Below, one piece after another: positions 20,652-31,888 of a stretch of 64,000 bases of DNA. The stretch comes from Candidatus Krumholzibacteriia bacterium (GTDB lineage Bacteria > Krumholzibacteriota > Krumholzibacteriia > JAJRXK01): contig JAOZPE010000001.1 of assembly GCA_029932915.1 (NCBI GenBank), positions 96,222-160,221 of the forward strand, in the 5' to 3' direction. A model generated the notes under the pieces. That model was given only the letters and a program-made list of their open reading frames with translations. It was not told where the DNA came from and ran no database searches. The position numbers and the translations under genes are program-made. Every line of letters begins with the position of its first letter. The first letter of the stretch is position 1.

Positions 20652-23600
20652 ATGGAACCTGCGTGGGGCGGGATCCATCTGCCGGAGGCGGACATGGACG
20701 AGAGTCTGGTGGCGCATCGTTTCCAGCGCCTGGTGCCCTTGCACGAAGACGAGGACCTCCGTCTCGACCTGGCCCGCGATGTGGCCTCCGATACCCTGGG
20801 CTCCTTGCTGACGGTGGGCTCGAAGGCCGACAGCACCGGAGAACTGTCGCTGCGGATCCGGCTGAAGTTCTTCAAGTCGGGCCGTCTGTTCCGGCCCATG
20901 CGTCCGGTGGCGGTCGTCGCCAGCGACGAGGGACTCCATTTCCTGTTGCCGGCGATCGAGGCCCATCCCTGGGAGAGCCACCTGCTGGCCTCCGATGGAG
21001 AGGTGGCACTGCGGGACCTGAGGGCCATCCGTGACGGTCTGAACGAGCACGAGAAGGGGGGCTTCCCCGCCGGGCGTCTGCGGCTGGATACCCTGTATCG
21101 TGACGAACAGGGCCCCTTCTTCCTGCCGGTCGCCTACGTGTTGCCGTCCGCCTCGAGTTCGTCCTATCACGATCCGGTCCTGTGCCGTCAGGAGTGCCGG
21201 GAGCTGCGCGAGGAACTGGCCGGCCTGTGCCGGCGCTACCTGAAGATGGCCGGTACGCGGCTGCCCGAGGAACAGCGGGCCGAGGTCGAGGCGATCCAGC
21301 ACGAGCTGGTGCAGGAGCGGCCGGAGGCGCCGACCGCCCGTCATCTACGTCCGCTGGTGCAGACCCTCGATGTGCTTCGGGAGGAGGGTGGGGCCCTCCT
21401 GGTCAAGGGGAGCACCGCCAGTCTGCTGGAGGCGGCCGAGGTCGTCGTCTCCTGGGCGCGCACATCGGAGCGGAGATTGGCGATCCTTCGCCCCCACACC
21501 TGCTCCCCCATCCAGCGGATGCGCCGCGGTGGCGTTCAGGAACACGGCCCGCTCATCCTGCTCCACGGCTTCTCCTCCTACCCGTCCTTCGCCCAGGGGC
21601 TCCAGTATCTGCGTTCGGCGGGTTGGCTGAATTCCCGGGCGATCGTGGTGGTCCTGATCGAGGGTCCCCTGGACGGCGAGGCCACCCGTCTCTTCCTGGA
21701 CGGTCTGCGCGGCAAGGGGTCCGACCGGGGCTTCGAGTGGAACCTGCCGGGCAACGGCTCCTCGCCGCCGGCGGTGATCGATGCCGGCTCGGGACTATCG
21801 GGCCGGATCCTCGAGGCGCTTCAGATCGCCGGCCGGCCACTGGCGGCGGACTTTGTCTGCCGGGCCTTCTCCATCACCGACGATGAGCTGGCCGACGCAG
21901 TAGGGGAGCTTCAGGAGCGGAAGAAGATCGAATGCCTGTACGGCATGGCGGACGACACCGGCTCGCAGCGGCGTCTGCTGGTGAGCTTGCCGATGAACGT
22001 GAAGGTGGAGGTGGGAAGGGAGCGCGAGAGGGAACTCTCCGGTCTGCTGTCCTCGACCCTGGACGCTGCGAAGGGGCGCATGGGTTGGGGACGACTGTGG
22101 CTGCACCTGCAATCGACCCTGCAGGGCGATTCCTCCCGGGCTCCCCTGCTGGTCCGCCAGATCGTCGAACAGTGTGAGAAGGACGATGAGCAGCTCCTGC
22201 AGTACGCCGCGTACGAGTACCTGCTGAAGAGCCCGGAGGGAAGGAAGCAGTCGAAACTGGAGGACCGGGCGCGTGCCGCACTGGTCATGGGCCGGATCCA
22301 CAGCGAGATGGGGGAGACCGACCGGGCGATGGAGATCCTCCGGGAAGCCCTGGACGAAGTGGAGGAACAGGGGGCCCCGGCCAATCCCAAGCTGGTCCTC
22401 CTGGCGGTCGAACTCACCCTGGCCTTGACCGCCATCCACACCAAGCGAAGCGCCTATCTGGAGATCAACCGGCTGGTGCGCGAAGCGCTCGAACGCTATG
22501 AGGAGGACCTCAGTGCGCTTCCCCGCTGCCGTCTGTACCTCGATCTGTCCTGGGCGCTCTTCCGGCTGGGCAGGACGCGCGAGGCGGCGCGCTACTCGGA
22601 ACTGGTGCTGAAGATCCTCGATGCCGAGCACAATCCGCTGGAGGTGGCGCGGGCCTACAACCAACTCGGCCTTCTGCAGTACGAGGAGAGCAATTACTCC
22701 CAGAGCCTGATCAACCTCGAGCGCGCGCTGGTCCTGCGCGAACAGGCGGGCGATTCGATCGCCGTGGCCCGCAGCTACAACAACCTCTCGCTGGTCTACC
22801 GCGCGCTGGGGCGCCTCCTGGAGGCCGAGCGCTGTCTCCATCGCAGTCTCGAGGTGAAGACCAAGGCCGCCGATACCGCCGGTGTGGCGAGCGCGCAACT
22901 CAATCTCGGTTTGCTCGCCATCGTCCAGGGTGATTTCGAGAAGGCGCGGACCTGTGCGGCCGAGTGTCTGCACGCCGCGCGCAGTTGCGGTTCCCTGCGG
23001 CACGAAGCCGAGGCGCATGGGCTGCTCGGCGAGGCGGCCATGGAGGAGGGCAAGTGGGAGGAGGGCCGCGACTACCTGCTTCGCGATCTGGAGATCTGCC
23101 GCACCATCCATCACGACACCGAGCGCCTGGCCACCCTGCGCCGGCTCATCCGGGCCCAGCTCGAGCTCGCTGAATTCGATGAGGTGCGCCAGAGTCTCCG
23201 CGAGGCCCGTGAACTGCTGGACATGGTGCCGTCGCGTTTCGAGGCCTCGATGCTCGATGTCTACGAGGCGCAACTCCTGCGCGGAGAGGGTGAAGCGGAG
23301 AAGGCCCTGTCGCTGCTGGCCAAGGCGGCGCGGAACTTCGGGGCGATCCGCCGCTTCGATCTCCAGGTGGACAGTCTCGCGCGCAAGGTCGACCTGCAGT
23401 GGGAACTCAAGAAGGTCGCCGAGGCGCGGGCCACGCTCCGTCAGGCCCGTGAGATCGCGGCCCGGCAGGAGATCCATCGTCTGCCCGAGCTCTTCGTTCA
23501 ACTCGAGACACGGGTCGGGGGCCACCCGGTCTCCAGCGAGGGCGCCGTCGATCACCACCTGGAGAGTCTGGCCGATCTGCTCGCCCCGGGCGGCGATCTG

Positions 23601-25019
23601 CAGGGCGGCCGGCTGGAGGGCGTGTTGCGATCGATCGCGGCCACCCTGGGCGCCTCGCAGGTGCACCTGATCCATTCCTCGCCCCAGCGGGCGATCAGCT
23701 GGGTGGAGACGGAGATCGTCCGCGACTCGGTTCCCGACGAACTGGAGAAGATCCTGGCCCAGGGGAGGACCGAACCCCTCGACGGCGATGGAGATGTCGA
23801 GCCCTGGCGGATCGTGCGGCTCTGGGGCCAGGAGCCGGGCTGGCTGTGTGTGAAGCGCACCCGGCCCTTCGACGAGAAGGAATTGGCCTTCCTCGCCACG
23901 GTGGCCGGTGTCCTGAGTCTGGGGAGGCAGTCCCCGGTCGTCCAGGCGGTTCCCCACCACAGCCTGGTCGAGGAGCCCGATGCCCAGCCGGGGGCCGCAT
24001 ACGGGATCATCGGAACCAGTCCGGAGATCGTGGGCGTCCTGCGGATGATCGAGATGGTCAAGGACAACGACGTGACCATTCTCATCCTCGGCGAGAACGG
24101 GACGGGCAAGGACCTGGTGGCGCGGGCCATCCACAATGCAGGGGTCCGGTCGAAGAAGGAATTCGTGGCGGTCAACTGTGCCTCGATTCCCTCTTCCCTG
24201 CTGGAGAGCGAACTCTTCGGACACGAGAAGGGGGCGTTCACCTCGGCGGTGGATCGGCGCATCGGGATCTTCGAGCGGGCCGAGGGTGGCAGCGTCTTCC
24301 TCGACGAGATCGCCGAGATGCCTCTGGCCATGCAGGCGAAGCTGTTGCGGGTGTTGCAGGACAAGACCTACACCCGGGTGGGAGGCAGCAAGACCCTTCA
24401 CAGTGACGTTCGCTTGATCGCGGCGACGAACCGCGATCTGTCCCAGGAAGTCGAGCAGGGGCGTTTCCGGATGGACTTGTTCTACCGGCTGAACGTCATC
24501 ACCATCCATCTGCCTGCGCTGCGCGAACATCGCGAGGACATCCGCCCTCTGGTCCATCACTTCCTGCACTCGTTCTCCGAGGAATTCCACCGGCCGGTGC
24601 GGGGCATCACCGACGAGGCCATCGAACGGCTCATGGATTACGACTGGCCGGGCAACATTCGCGAGCTGGAGAACGTAATCAAGAAGGCCATCGTCTTCGC
24701 CAGCCACGATCTGCTGCGGGTGGAAGACATGCCGCGTCTGGGTTCGCGGTCGTTGTCGACGCGACCCCGGGCCGGAGTCGCCGAAACCGTGCGGAGTCTG
24801 GTGGAGGGACGGGATTTCTCCGAGGACCGTCCCCTGATGCCGCGCCTGGAGCTGGAGTTGGCCTGGGAACTGGTCCAGGCGGTGGGCAACAAGACCAAGG
24901 CCGCCCGTCTGCTGGGCATCACCAAGCCCACGCTCTACAGTCGTCTACGACGGTACCAGGAGCTGGGTGAAGGGGATGTGGCCCGTCTGCGCTCGAAGAG
25001 TGGGCGGGGGGGAAAATGA
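20652..25019 (+). CDS. Very large sigma54-dependent transcriptional activator with TPR repeats and AAA+/HTH (Fis-type) output
   Basis: TPR-like segment 530-850; AAA+ YGIIGTSPEIVGVL, GENGTGKDLVARAIH, GAFTSA, GSVFLDEIAEMPLAMQAKLLRVLQ; C-terminal HTH ELAWELVQAVGNKTKAARLLGITKPTLYSRLRRYQEL. Confidence 0.9.
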   Translation: MEPAWGGIHLPEADMDESLVAHRFQRLVPLHEDEDLRLDLARDVASDTLGSLLTVGSKADSTGELSLRIRLKFFKSGRLFRPMRPVAVVASDEGLHFLLPAIEAHPWESHLLASDGEVALRDLRAIRDGLNEHEKGGFPAGRLRLDTLYRDEQGPFFLPVAYVLPSASSSSYHDPVLCRQECRELREELAGLCRRYLKMAGTRLPEEQRAEVEAIQHELVQERPEAPTARHLRPLVQTLDVLREEGGALLVKGSTASLLEAAEVVVSWARTSERRLAILRPHTCSPIQRMRRGGVQEHGPLILLHGFSSYPSFAQGLQYLRSAGWLNSRAIVVVLIEGPLDGEATRLFLDGLRGKGSDRGFEWNLPGNGSSPPAVIDAGSGLSGRILEALQIAGRPLAADFVCRAFSITDDELADAVGELQERKKIECLYGMADDTGSQRRLLVSLPMNVKVEVGRERERELSGLLSSTLDAAKGRMGWGRLWLHLQSTLQGDSSRAPLLVRQIVEQCEKDDEQLLQYAAYEYLLKSPEGRKQSKLEDRARAALVMGRIHSEMGETDRAMEILREALDEVEEQGAPANPKLVLLAVELTLALTAIHTKRSAYLEINRLVREALERYEEDLSALPRCRLYLDLSWALFRLGRTREAARYSELVLKILDAEHNPLEVARAYNQLGLLQYEESNYSQSLINLERALVLREQAGDSIAVARSYNNLSLVYRALGRLLEAERCLHRSLEVKTKAADTAGVASAQLNLGLLAIVQGDFEKARTCAAECLHAARSCGSLRHEAEAHGLLGEAAMEEGKWEEGRDYLLRDLEICRTIHHDTERLATLRRLIRAQLELAEFDEVRQSLREARELLDMVPSRFEASMLDVYEAQLLRGEGEAEKALSLLAKAARNFGAIRRFDLQVDSLARKVDLQWELKKVAEARATLRQAREIAARQEIHRLPELFVQLETRVGGHPVSSEGAVDHHLESLADLLAPGGDLQGGRLEGVLRSIAATLGASQVHLIHSSPQRAISWVETEIVRDSVPDELEKILAQGRTEPLDGDGDVEPWRIVRLWGQEPGWLCVKRTRPFDEKELAFLATVAGVLSLGRQSPVVQAVPHHSLVEEPDAQPGAAYGIIGTSPEIVGVLRMIEMVKDNDVTILILGENGTGKDLVARAIHNAGVRSKKEFVAVNCASIPSSLLESELFGHEKGAFTSAVDRRIGIFERAEGGSVFLDEIAEMPLAMQAKLLRVLQDKTYTRVGGSKTLHSDVRLIAATNRDLSQEVEQGRFRMDLFYRLNVITIHLPALREHREDIRPLVHHFLHSFSEEFHRPVRGITDEAIERLMDYDWPGNIRELENVIKKAIVFASHDLLRVEDMPRLGSRSLSTRPRAGVAETVRSLVEGRDFSEDRPLMPRLELELAWELVQAVGNKTKAARLLGITKPTLYSRLRRYQELGEGDVARLRSKSGRGGK

Positions 25020-26061: not shown

Positions 26062-26898
26062 GTGTTCCTGCGCTGGCTGCTCGCTCCACTCTCCTCTTGC
26101 CAGGCTGCATCCGGGGCCCGAGGCATCGGCCTCGCCGTCCTGCTCGCCGTCTCCGTCCTGGGCGGGATCGCCTCGTCTCCAGGAATGGCCAGGGCGGGAG
26201 ACCTGAGCGGGCTGCCCCGCCTGGAGGTGGCTGAGCGTGAGATCGTTCCCCTGCCGACCGATGGGGTGCGGGGTCTGATCGTCTCGGGCTCCTCGCTGAT
26301 CCTCCTCGCCGACGACCACCGCGGGCTCTCGGCGCCGGACTCGTCCTATCTGGCCCGTCTGCTGCGTTTCCAGCCGTCCACCGGTGAAGTGGAGCTCCTG
26401 GCCGCCCAGCGCGACGCCTTCGAGACCGGCCTGACCGGAGACGGCCAGGCCTGGTGGAGTTGCGGCAGTCTGTTGGGGGCCGACGGAGGGATCTACCGGA
26501 TCTCGCCGGAGGACGGATCGATCCTGTCGAGCCTGCCCCTTCCCGGTCATCATCCCGGCGGGATCGCCTTCGATGGCAGCTATCTGTGGGTCGTCGACTG
26601 CGATGCCCGCAAGCTGCTGCGCGTGGAGGTCGAGGAGGGTCTGATCTCACGCAAGGTGGCGACGCCCTCGCTGTATCCCACCGGTCTGGCCTACGACGGC
26701 TATCACTTCTGGTGCGCCGATGCCACCACGGGCCGGATCTACCGTCTGAAGGGCTACAACGGGCGCGTCGATGCCGTTCTCTCCCGCGAGGCATTCTACC
26801 GTCCGGGCGCGTTCGTCAGCCTGGCGTGGGGAGCAGGGGCGCTCTGGGCGGTCACGGCTTCGGATTCCTTCGCACTGCGGATGAAGCTCGCGCGCTGA
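26062..26898 (+). CDS. Secreted beta-propeller-like (NHL/SMP-30-like) protein
   Basis: Signal/TM N-terminus and repeated GIAFDGSYLWVVDCDARKLLRVE / GLAYDGYHFWCADATTGRIYRLK blades. Confidence 0.7.
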   Translation: MFLRWLLAPLSSCQAASGARGIGLAVLLAVSVLGGIASSPGMARAGDLSGLPRLEVAEREIVPLPTDGVRGLIVSGSSLILLADDHRGLSAPDSSYLARLLRFQPSTGEVELLAAQRDAFETGLTGDGQAWWSCGSLLGADGGIYRISPEDGSILSSLPLPGHHPGGIAFDGSYLWVVDCDARKLLRVEVEEGLISRKVATPSLYPTGLAYDGYHFWCADATTGRIYRLKGYNGRVDAVLSREAFYRPGAFVSLAWGAGALWAVTASDSFALRMKLAR

Positions 26899-26943: not shown

Positions 26944-26958
26944 TGAAAATGGATTTCA
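26944..26958 (+). promoter_or_regulatory. Fur-box-like palindrome upstream of tandem-Fur gene
   Basis: TGAAAATGGATTTCA, 5-bp perfect outer arms, 53 nt upstream of ATG 27011. Confidence 0.45.
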
Positions 26959-27010
26959 TCTTCAGCTTCCGGCCCTTCGCGACCGGGCTCGTCCGAGAGG
27001 GTGGCCTCCG

Positions 27011-28060
27011 ATGTCGTCCCCCCCTGTGATGCCCGACTCCTCTTCGGCGGAGCCACTGGTCGAAGCCTTCCGCTCCTACCTGTCCCGGGAGAAATTGAAG
27101 GCCACCCGCCAGCGGGACCTCATCGTCCAGGTCTTCGCTTCGGTGTCGGGACACGTCAATGCCCAGGAACTGTGGGCGGAGGTCACGGCTCGCGACCCCT
27201 CCATCGGCTACGCCACGGTCTACCGTACCCTGAAGCTGCTGGCCGCCGCCGGTCTGGCCATCGTCCATCGTTTCGGCGATGGCCAGACCCGCTACGAGGT
27301 GCAGAGGGCCGGCCACCACGATCACCTCATCTGTCTCGAGTGCGGACTCATCCTCGAGTTCCATTCCCGACGACTGGAACGTCTGCAGGAAGAGGTGGCC
27401 CGCCGGCACCATTTCCACGTGGTACGTCACCGACACGAACTCTTCGGGGTGTGCGAGGCCTTTCTCTCGGGCCGGACTTGTCCCTATCGCCGGGATGCTG
27501 CCCATCAGTCGGGCCGCCTGCACACCTCGTCCTCCGGCGTCGACCGCGGCTTCATCGAGGAGATCCCGCCGGTCGATCAACTGCCGGCGGCCTTTCGCTC
27601 CTATCTCCTGCGCCGCAAACTCAAGTCGACACGTCAGCGGGAACTCATCGTGGAGGTCTTCGCCACGATCGATGGACACGTGACGGTCGATGAGCTGTTG
27701 ACCGCCGTACGGCAGCGTGACGTGAGGGTGAGTTATGCCACCGTCTACCGGACCTTGAAGATCCTGGTCGAGGCCGGGCTTGCCATCGAACGGGAATTCA
27801 GCGAGGAGCGGCATTGCTATGAGCGGCGCAGCCGGGAACATCACGACCACATGATCTGCGAACGCACCGGGACGATCATCGAATTCCATGACGACGAGAT
27901 CGAGGCATTGCAGGAGAAGATCGCCCGCGAGCGGGGCTTCCGTCTCTTCCGGCATCGCCACGAACTGTACGGATACCTGGAGGAAGACGCGGAAGGTGGG
28001 CGGCGCCGGTCGGGAAGGACACGGTCGCCGGACCGCTCCCGAGGAGGTGATGCGCGGTGA
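27011..28060 (+). CDS. Tandem Fur-domain fusion regulator (two complete Fur/PerR-family repeats)
   Basis: Repeat 1 KLKATRQRDLIVQVFASVSGHVNAQELWAEVTARDPSIGYATVYRTLKLLAAAGLAIVHRF...HHDHLICLECG; repeat 2 KLKSTRQRELIVEVFATIDGHVTVDELLTAVRQRDVRVSYATVYRTLKILVEAGLAIEREF...HHDHMICERTG. Confidence 0.93.
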   Translation: MSSPPVMPDSSSAEPLVEAFRSYLSREKLKATRQRDLIVQVFASVSGHVNAQELWAEVTARDPSIGYATVYRTLKLLAAAGLAIVHRFGDGQTRYEVQRAGHHDHLICLECGLILEFHSRRLERLQEEVARRHHFHVVRHRHELFGVCEAFLSGRTCPYRRDAAHQSGRLHTSSSGVDRGFIEEIPPVDQLPAAFRSYLLRRKLKSTRQRELIVEVFATIDGHVTVDELLTAVRQRDVRVSYATVYRTLKILVEAGLAIEREFSEERHCYERRSREHHDHMICERTGTIIEFHDDEIEALQEKIARERGFRLFRHRHELYGYLEEDAEGGRRRSGRTRSPDRSRGGDAR

Positions 28061-29208
28061 GTCGAGCCGAACCCGGAATGCAGTGGATCGAGGTGGACAC
28101 CGCCCGGCTGAGGGACAACCTGCGCTCCTTCCGGCAGGTCCTGCCCGAGGGCGCCGAACTCGCGCCGGTGCTCAAGAGCAACGCCTACGGCCACGGATTG
28201 TCGATCGCCGCGAGAGCCTTCGCCCGCGCGGGCGCGCAGTGGTTCTGCGTGCACTCCTTCGCCGAGGCCGAGGCCCTCGACCAGCTCGGTCTCGGTCTGC
28301 CCATCCTCATCCTCGGCCCCCTGGGCCGGGCGGAAGTGGAGGGGGCCGTCGAGCGGGGGTTCCACTGTACGGTGTACGACGCCGTGCGCCTGGAGGAGAT
28401 GGCCGAGGCGGCGCAGCGCCTGGACAAGACCGCACGGGTGCATCTGAAAGTGGAGACCGGGACCTGGCGCCAGGGGGTGACCGGGGCGGAATTCCTCGAG
28501 TGTCTGTCGGTGATCAAGAGGCATCCCCGCTTGGGGCTGGAGGGCCTGCACAGTCACTACGCCAACATCGAGGACACCACCGACCATTCCTATGCGGACG
28601 CCCAGAGGCGGGCCTTCGAGGAGGCCCTGGCAACGGTTCGCCAACAGGGACTGCAGCCTCGCCGGGTCCACATGAGCTGCAGCGCGGCGGCCATCCTCTT
28701 TCCCCGGCGGCACATGGACCTGGCCCGCATCGGGATCGCCGCCTACGGCTACTGGCCCAGCGCGGCCACCCAGGTCTCGGCCGGCCAGATGCGGGCGACC
28801 CCCATGGACCTCTCTCCGGCCCTGCAATGGAAGGTCAAGGTCGCCCAGGTGAAGCGGGTGCCGGCCGGCTCGTACATCGGTTACGGCTGCACCGACAAGG
28901 TGGAGATCGACACCCGCCTGGCGGTCCTGCCCGTCGGCTACGCCGACGGCTACGATCGGGGCATGGGCGGGCAGGCGCACGTCCTCCTGCATGGCCGCCG
29001 CTGCCCGGTCCGGGGGCGGATCTGCATGAATCTGATGATGGTGGACGTGAGCCACCTGCCGCAGGTGGCGGTCGGGGATGAAGCGGTCCTGTTGGGCCGT
29101 CAGGGAGAGGAGGAGATCGATGCGGAGACCCTGGCGCGCTGGGCCTCCACCATCCACTACGAGATCCTGGCCCGCCTGCGGGTCGACCTGCCCCGGATCG
29201 AGGTCTGA
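28057..29208 (+). CDS. alr: Alanine racemase
   Basis: QWIEVDTARLRDNLRSFRQ...APVLKSNAYGHGLSIAARAFA...VLPVGYADGYDRGMGGQAHVLLHGRRCPVRGRICMNLMMVDVSHL; GTG start overlaps upstream stop. Confidence 0.95.
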   Translation: MSRAEPGMQWIEVDTARLRDNLRSFRQVLPEGAELAPVLKSNAYGHGLSIAARAFARAGAQWFCVHSFAEAEALDQLGLGLPILILGPLGRAEVEGAVERGFHCTVYDAVRLEEMAEAAQRLDKTARVHLKVETGTWRQGVTGAEFLECLSVIKRHPRLGLEGLHSHYANIEDTTDHSYADAQRRAFEEALATVRQQGLQPRRVHMSCSAAAILFPRRHMDLARIGIAAYGYWPSAATQVSAGQMRATPMDLSPALQWKVKVAQVKRVPAGSYIGYGCTDKVEIDTRLAVLPVGYADGYDRGMGGQAHVLLHGRRCPVRGRICMNLMMVDVSHLPQVAVGDEAVLLGRQGEEEIDAETLARWASTIHYEILARLRVDLPRIEV

Positions 29209-29365: not shown

Positions 29366-31543
29366 TCACCCCCAGCCCAACAGTCGTCCGCCCTGATACA
29401 CGACGAAGGACGCCACCCATGCCAGGACGAACATGTAGGTCCACATGAAGAGGGGCCAGCGCCACGAATTGGTTTCCCTCTTGACCACCGCCAAGGTCGA
29501 CATGCATTGGCAGGCGAGGACGAAGAAGATGAGCAGGCTGGCCGCGACCAGCGGCGTCCAGACCGGTCGGCCGTCGGGGTAGCGGTCCCGCCGCATGCTC
29601 TCGATGAGCGAATGGCTCATGCCACCGCCTTCGGCCGCGGGGTCACCGCTGTCTCCCACGCTGTAGATGGTTCCCAGGGCACTGACCACCACTTCCCGGG
29701 CGGCGAAGGAGGAGAGCAGGGCCACCCCGATCTTCCAGTCGAAACCCAGGGGGCGCAGCATCGGTTCCCACACCTGTCCCGCGCGTCCCATGAACGACTG
29801 ACGCAACTGGCTGCCCGGATCGACCTGGCCGGTGAGCGGGTCGGCCGGGGCCTGCGGGAATGCGGCCAGTGCCCACAGGAGGATGCTCATGGCGAGGATG
29901 ATCGTGCCGGCGCGGGTGAGGAAGACCTTGACCCGTTCGGTCATGCGCCACGACACGTCGCGCAACCGTGGACGGTGGTAGGGGGGAAGCTCCATGAAGA
30001 AGGTCGATTCGGCCCCGTCGATGAGTTTGCGGCGCAGCACCCAGGCCGCGATCATCGCCGTCGCGGTGCCCATGACGTACAGGGCGAGCAGGGTGGCGGC
30101 CTTGTAGCTGATGAAGAGGATCCCGCCGGAGGGGACGAAGGCGGCGATGACCAGGGTATAGACGGGCAGACGCGCCGAGCAGGTGATGAACGGAGCCACC
30201 ATGATGGTGGTCAGCCGGTCCTGTTCGTTGTCCATGGTCCGGGTGGCCATGATGCCCGGCACCGCACAGGCGTAGGAGGAGATGAGGGGGACGACCGAGC
30301 GACCGCTCAGACCGAAGCGGCGCATGGGCCGGTCCATGATGAAGGCGACGCGGGCCATGTAACCGGTGTCCTCGAGCAATCCCAGGAAGAAGAAGAGCAG
30401 GAGGATCTGCGGAAGGAAGATCACGATCCCGCCCACGCCGGCCAGGGCTCCGTCCACCACCAGACTGCGCAGGATGCCCGGGGCCATCGCGCCCTCCACC
30501 AGGGTGGACAGCGAAGCCATTCCCTGGTTGATCCAGTCCATGAACGGCTGGGCCCAACTGAACACCGCCTCGAAGACCACGAGCAGCACGAGCAGGAAGA
30601 AGAGCGGCCCGAAGATGCGGTGGGTGAGGAAGGCATCGATGCGTTCGCTCAGGGTCCGGTGACTCTCCGCCCGCCGGTAGTGCACCACGCGCTTGGTCAG
30701 AGGGGTGATCCACTGGTAGCGGGCGATGATCTCCGCCTGTTCATAGAGGACGCCCTTCTTGCGCAGACGTTGCCGTGCCGCCTCCACCTTCTCCCAGAAG
30801 GGAGGGGAGTGATGGCTCTCGTAGCTCTTGGCCGTGGTGTTGACGATCGCCCGCAGGGCGTCGGCGAAGCGGGCGGTGGGACAGAGGTTGGGGATCTCCC
30901 TTGCCAGGTCTTCGGCGAGCTCGTTCACTTCCTTCTCGAGCTCGGGGGGGACGATCCAACGCCGGGGGGCGACCGGTGGCAGGGGGCCCTTCAGGGCCGC
31001 CTTCAGTTCGTCGATTCCCCGGCCGCTGCTCGCCGCCAAGGGGATCACCGGAACGCCGAGCTCCCGCGACAGTCCCTCATGGTCGATGAAGATGCCGTTG
31101 CGCTCGGCCGAATCGGTCATGTTCAACGCGACGATGGTGGGAATGCCCAGGTCGATCACCTGGCTCGTCAGATAGAGGTTGCGTTCGAGGTTGCCCGCAT
31201 CGACCACGCAGACGATGAGATCGGGACGGCGGTGATCCCCCATTTCCCCGACCAGGACGCGGTAGGCGATCTCCTCGTCCAGGGAACGGGGATTGAGGCT
31301 GTAGGTCCCGGGCACATCGACGATCTCCACTGCCGGACCGCCGTTGGCCGGGAGCAGGCCGGTCTTGCGCTCGACGGTCACACCGGGGTAGTTGCCGACC
31401 TTCTGCCGCATCCCGGTGAGCTGATTGAAGACCGTGGTCTTGCCGACGTTGGGATTGCCCGCCAGGGCGACGAGGCGCGGCGGCTGGGTCGAGGTGGCCG
31501 ACGAGAGGGCCGCTTCGCCTGGCTGGGACGAGGAGGTGGACAT
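29366..31543 (-). CDS. feoB: Ferrous iron transport protein B
   Basis: VALAGNPNVGKTTVFNQLTGMRQKVGNYPGVTVERKTG...VDVPGTYSLNPRSLDE; GTPase plus C-terminal TM segments. Confidence 0.97.
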   Translation of the reverse strand: MSTSSSQPGEAALSSATSTQPPRLVALAGNPNVGKTTVFNQLTGMRQKVGNYPGVTVERKTGLLPANGGPAVEIVDVPGTYSLNPRSLDEEIAYRVLVGEMGDHRRPDLIVCVVDAGNLERNLYLTSQVIDLGIPTIVALNMTDSAERNGIFIDHEGLSRELGVPVIPLAASSGRGIDELKAALKGPLPPVAPRRWIVPPELEKEVNELAEDLAREIPNLCPTARFADALRAIVNTTAKSYESHHSPPFWEKVEAARQRLRKKGVLYEQAEIIARYQWITPLTKRVVHYRRAESHRTLSERIDAFLTHRIFGPLFFLLVLLVVFEAVFSWAQPFMDWINQGMASLSTLVEGAMAPGILRSLVVDGALAGVGGIVIFLPQILLLFFFLGLLEDTGYMARVAFIMDRPMRRFGLSGRSVVPLISSYACAVPGIMATRTMDNEQDRLTTIMVAPFITCSARLPVYTLVIAAFVPSGGILFISYKAATLLALYVMGTATAMIAAWVLRRKLIDGAESTFFMELPPYHRPRLRDVSWRMTERVKVFLTRAGTIILAMSILLWALAAFPQAPADPLTGQVDPGSQLRQSFMGRAGQVWEPMLRPLGFDWKIGVALLSSFAAREVVVSALGTIYSVGDSGDPAAEGGGMSHSLIESMRRDRYPDGRPVWTPLVAASLLIFFVLACQCMSTLAVVKRETNSWRWPLFMWTYMFVLAWVASFVVYQGGRLLGWG

Positions 31544-31550
31544 CGCCCGA

Positions 31551-31772
31551 TCAGAGAGGCCGGACCTCGATGAGGCCGGCTTCCTGTCGACGGAGGGAGA
31601 GGTGATACCCCCGGACCCGCACGTCGATGGGATCGCCCATGGGGGCGGTGCGGATGATCTCGAGCTGCGTTCCCTGGAGAATGCCCAGCTCCAGCAGGCG
31701 ACTGGGAGGCTCGGGGCTGGTCCAGCCGGTGACGATGCCGCGTTCTCCGGGTTTGAGCTGATCGAGGGTCAT
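31551..31772 (-). CDS. feoA: Ferrous iron transport protein A
   Basis: MTLDQLKPGERGIVTGWTSPEPPSRLLELGILQGTQLEIIRTAPMGDPIDVRVRGYHLSLRRQEAGLIEV. Confidence 0.93.
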   Translation of the reverse strand: MTLDQLKPGERGIVTGWTSPEPPSRLLELGILQGTQLEIIRTAPMGDPIDVRVRGYHLSLRRQEAGLIEVRPL

Positions 31773-31865
31773 GGGGGTCCGCATCCTTCGCATGGGTGTA
31801 CACGAGAGCCGTCCGGCTGGGCCGAAGACCGGCACGGGGGCCCAGGATCAAGGTACTCGAAATCA

Positions 31866-31888
31866 GTGAAATTGCAAATCAATTTCAC
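31866..31888 (-). promoter_or_regulatory. Fur-type operator upstream of feoAB
   Basis: GTGAAATTG-CAAAT-CAATTTCAC, 9-bp perfect arms, about 95 nt upstream of feoA. Confidence 0.6.

Follow-up and report, generated by a model that had tools for sequence, protein, structure and literature searches.

Fur is a textbook homodimer, so that any mutation in it strikes both subunits, and its structural Zn(Cys)4 site is not universal among Fur proteins. Functional Fur proteins that lack the structural cysteines exist (PMC11353095). The best match among canonical Fur proteins to the regulator described here is MgFur of Magnetospirillum gryphiswaldense (PDB 4RAZ, 4RB1-4RB3), a homodimer in which each of the two separate chains has about 145 aa. 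One MgFur dimer binds the feoAB1 operator, and two dimers bind a full Fur box (PMC4506495). Here, we describe a Fur protein from a Candidatus Krumholzibacteriia bacterium in which two FUR domains are fused into a single chain. This protein is like MgFur in its fold, in its metal sites 1 and 2, in the residues that contact DNA and, as predicted here, in its feoAB target and Fur-box operator, and MgFur, which has no CxxC, resembles the second of the two domains. Unlike MgFur, however, both halves reside in one chain, and only one of them has retained the structural Cys site.

The gene was found in a window of 64,000 nucleotides, by which we mean the whole stretch of DNA that was analysed. All positions below refer to this window unless stated otherwise.

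26944..26964, + strand: predicted Fur box TGAAAATGGATTTCATCTTCA, 46 bp 5' of the fur start codon, predicted autoregulation (consensus ranking and motif scan)
27011..28060, + strand: tandem fur, 349 aa, two FUR domains in a single chain (open reading frame and Pfam)
27056..27505, + strand: domain 1, about residues 16-165, containing the domains for DNA binding and dimerisation, the ligands of the sensing site and a putative Cys4 structural zinc site (alignment and Pfam)
27506..27571, + strand: linker, about residues 166-187, with low AlphaFold confidence at 165-182 and no in-frame ATG, GTG or TTG
27575..28015, + strand: domain 2, about residues 189-335, with sensing-site and DNA-contact residues present (alignment and Pfam)
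28057..29208, + strand: alr, alanine racemase (identity from Pfam), with a 4-bp overlap (GTGA) between its start and the stop of fur
29366..31543, - strand: feoB, ferrous iron transporter (Pfam), predicted Fur target
31551..31835, - strand: feoA (Pfam), predicted Fur target
31867..31887, - strand: predicted Fur box TGAAATTGATTTGCAATTTCA upstream of feoAB, with perfectly complementary arms TGAAATTG and CAATTTCA

The open reading frame at 27011-28060 runs unbroken from ATG to TGA. The 349-aa product matches FUR (PF01475) in two stretches with a total of 226.6 bits (curated cut-off 23.1), and a profile search of the whole genome returned these stretches at 1.7e-34 and 6.3e-34. The gene is the sole Fur-family match in its genome (G000; 2.92 Mb, 98 contigs, estimated 98% complete). 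In canonical Fur proteins a chain of about 140-170 aa holds a single FUR domain, a format from which the two domains and 349 aa of the tandem depart. Iron Fur models give the top NCBIfam scores, and the score against PRK09462 (160.6, cut-off 146) is a whole-protein score in which the two domains are summed. The original prediction of two Fur repeats in one polypeptide, made from the DNA letters, is thus borne out by the uninterrupted frame, by the two FUR domains and by their conservation in three genomes, and the motifs that it had named are found in the alignment, namely HHDH, CLECG and C-EAFLSGRT-C in repeat 1, and HHDH with ERTG in the place of CxxC in repeat 2. The two domains are 52% identical as proteins, while the similarity of their DNA is patchy and clearly diverged, so that the halves are neither a recent copy nor the product of repeat-driven misassembly. 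Between codons 147 and 214 there is no in-frame ATG, GTG or TTG, and domain 2, which starts near residue 188, therefore has no nearby start codon of its own. Separate translation of domain 2 is disfavoured for this reason; the GTG at codon 147 is a possible start, without an obvious ribosome-binding site.

Residues of the two domains in the three known tandems were compared using the numbering and roles given for MgFur (PMC4506495). The sensing site 1 (H33, E81, H88, H90, and E101) and site 2 (H87, D89, E108, Q111, and H125) are invariant across all six domains. The same is true for the DNA-contact residue Arg57, and Tyr56 is likewise kept, while Lys15 is either K or R. In each of the three tandems, the structural-site CxxC is present in domain 1 and lost from domain 2. 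Domain 1 of G000 has four cysteines (CLECG...C-x8-C), the second pair being unusual, and its domain 2 has ERTG and is missing the C-terminal Cys pair. The C-x8-C lies at 27449-27485, where relatives have C-x2-C or C-x5-C. The asymmetry of metal sites that had been proposed for this protein accordingly holds for the structural Cys4 site, where it is conserved in three genomes, but not for the sensing sites, which are intact in both halves.

A fold search returned Fur structures, with the MgFur-feoAB1 complexes first. In the AlphaFold model of the tandem both domains are folded (mean pLDDT 81.4, pTM 0.57) and are joined by a disordered stretch at residues 165-182. This model, which had been suggested as a check, folds each domain but does not fix the mutual arrangement of the halves (pTM 0.57), on which it is uninformative because all homologue rows were aligned to domain 1. 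Counted from the sequences, the stretch between the final FG of domain 1 and the first Phe of its partner domain measures 48 residues in G000, and 32 in each of the other two tandems. Judged by this spacing, a linker of 32-48 residues would seem to allow the halves of one chain to pair.

Among 58 relatives and 80 genomes of the phylum, open frames that hold a second FUR domain are present only in the family of the source organism, in G000 and in G002 (L106/L153) and G003 (L107/L154), which belong to another genus of that family and have the tandem at the same fur-alr locus. Like the G000 protein, the latter two have CxxC only in domain 1; unlike in G000, their linker is 32 rather than 48 residues long, no Fur box was found before the gene and feo was not found beside it. 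The fourth family member, G001 (Candidatus Krumholzibacteriota OFTM315, locus L001), has a single Fur of 163 aa. This protein is 54-56% identical to each domain of the tandem, and it shares the fur-alr locus, has a full Cys4 site and is accompanied by a Fur box before feoB. It differs from G000 in having one domain, and in that its genome has two further Fur-family genes. Tandems were not seen in the remaining 76 genomes of the phylum (Krumholzibacteriota) or in the best 80 homologues from public genomes (0 tandems). Nor were there any among the matches listed for partial samples of the groups G081 (148), G080 (198), and G083 (119), 465 genomes together; as these matches were limited by E-value and length, rare or weakly matching tandems could escape. 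A full-length protein search across 297 genomes (E<=1e-43) gave single-domain matches only. At least 80% of the query is covered by three plasmid records, of which the best two (H1 and H2) cannot hold two FUR domains, since these matches are shorter than 560 bases. A Fur-Fur protein was not found described or characterised among the open-access papers that were searched; many characterised proteins of identical architecture had been named beforehand as a finding that would overturn the prediction. The regulator itself is known but this architecture of it is new, a lineage-restricted single-chain Fur.

In the phylogenetic tree, the six tandem domains and the single Fur of G001 form one group (support 97/90), within which the domains 1 of G002 and G003 pair together (100/96), as do their domains 2 (100/98), with a long branch for domain 2 of G002. 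This pairing places the duplication in G002 and G003 before their split. For the tandem of G000, the sequences are compatible both with a shared duplication and later loss in G001 and with an independent fusion, neither of which is rejected by AU tests (p 0.21 and 0.31). Under independent fusions, CxxC would have been lost from domain 2 in parallel. In each of the four family members the fur gene lies immediately before alr, and the fusion therefore most likely took place where the ancestral fur gene already stood. Two other genes upstream of the tandem in G000 have counterparts in G002 (L153). One of these (20652-25019) encodes a 1455-aa protein with TPR repeats, a sigma-54 activator domain and a Fis-type HTH, a homologue of which lies upstream of the G002 tandem. 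The other, directly upstream of fur (26062-26898), is a 278-aa open reading frame without Pfam match, which has a 52% identical homologue in the same place (L153:5312-6136).

Beyond alr, feoB and feoA are oriented convergently towards it. The tandem had been described as adjacent to feoAB, which is correct with one gene, alr, in between, and a regulatory link to feoAB is supported by a predicted Fur box. All 21-mers of the window were ranked on both strands against the classical 21-bp Fur consensus, and the two top-ranked are the sites before fur and feoA, which a separate symmetry scan returned as the only AT-rich 21-bp dyads in the window. A motif built from the two boxes matched only those two places in the 2.9 Mb genome with at most three mismatches (control 0), a scan that is partly circular because the motif derives from these sites, so that the consensus ranking alone is independent. 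A Fur box at an iron-uptake target was taken as a mark of Fur sensu stricto, as opposed to Zur, PerR, Mur, and Nur, and the predicted boxes stand before feoA and fur only. Comparable boxes precede feoB at two feo loci of G003, which bears the tandem, and at one locus of G001, which has a single Fur, and on the basis of these similar sites the tandem appears to use an ordinary Fur operator. The motif scan of G002 gave zero matches. Fur-box-like sites at L145:1501, L143:1501, and L149:1501 lie before a class II DAHP synthase gene (G001) and two separate feoB loci (G003).

We consider it probable that the Fur of this organism is an iron-dependent repressor and acts in the form of a covalent pseudo-dimer, one half of which has the structural zinc; this is the most economical reading of the tandem. 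The usual homodimer would then be made as a single chain, the halves of which would pair via their dimerisation domains, and each half would take Fe(II) at the sensing site that joins its DNA-binding and dimerisation domains. The metal-loaded pseudo-dimer would bind a 7-1-7 inverted repeat, and each of the 21-bp boxes found before fur and feoAB, as two overlapping repeats, would take two chains, a number predicted from the binding of the full Fur box by two dimers of MgFur. When iron is plentiful, feoAB and fur, together with the downstream alr, would be repressed. The overlap of the alr start with the fur stop and the conservation of the gene pair in all four genomes suggest that alanine racemase may come under iron control via fur autoregulation. 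Domain 1 would hold the structural zinc, and its loss from domain 2 could perhaps be explained if the covalent linkage relieves the need for zinc-assisted assembly of the dimer.

A different arrangement, which we regard as unlikely, is a domain-swapped or tetramer-like assembly of two chains, in which each domain pairs with its counterpart in the other chain (1 with 1, 2 with 2), so that four DNA-binding domains would fill the 21-bp box at once and the fusion would serve to build the two-dimer complex. Both boxes are 21 bp long with dyad symmetry, and such a site takes two Fur dimers in the crystal of MgFur with the Fur box (PMC4506495); moreover, tetramers in solution have been described for some Fur proteins (PMC11353095), and the halves of G002 and G003 have stayed different since before these genomes split. 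However, the single-Fur G001 has boxes of equal length, which means that a 21-bp box does not require a tandem, and the linker of 32-48 residues is no hindrance to pairing within one chain.

Far less probable still is a reading in which domain 2, a copy in decay, has no regulatory role and is appended as a tail to a domain 1 that forms an ordinary Fur homodimer. The missing Cys4 site in domain 2 of all three tandems and the long branch of G002 would fit such decay, but the sensing ligands, Tyr56, and Arg57 are retained in this domain in three diverged genomes. Functional Fur proteins without structural cysteines are known (PMC11353095), and MgFur has no CxxC in the alignment, so that domain 2 need not be dead. 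An error of assembly or binning could have joined two neighbouring fur genes, and such an assembly error had been named beforehand among the outcomes that would overturn the prediction; this explanation can be set aside almost entirely. Although the draft genome is in 98 contigs, the same fusion is found at the same fur-alr locus in another genus (G002 and G003), a collapsed repeat would not show halves as diverged as these and the frame of the linker is open; the orthologous tandems make this explanation not credible.

If the tandem is indeed a pseudo-dimer, its halves could also have specialised, although we hold this to be doubtful, with domain 1 as a zinc-stabilised scaffold and domain 2 as its zinc-free partner in an obligate asymmetric dimer that would not exchange subunits with paralogues and would set the iron-response threshold of the whole genome. 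In a natural single-chain Fur, each metal site and each half-site contact could be mutated separately. This would make it directly testable how many metals are needed per dimer and whether both sides require the structural zinc. The family also offers a global regulator that was most likely fused in place, together with an unfused relative (G001) at the same locus.
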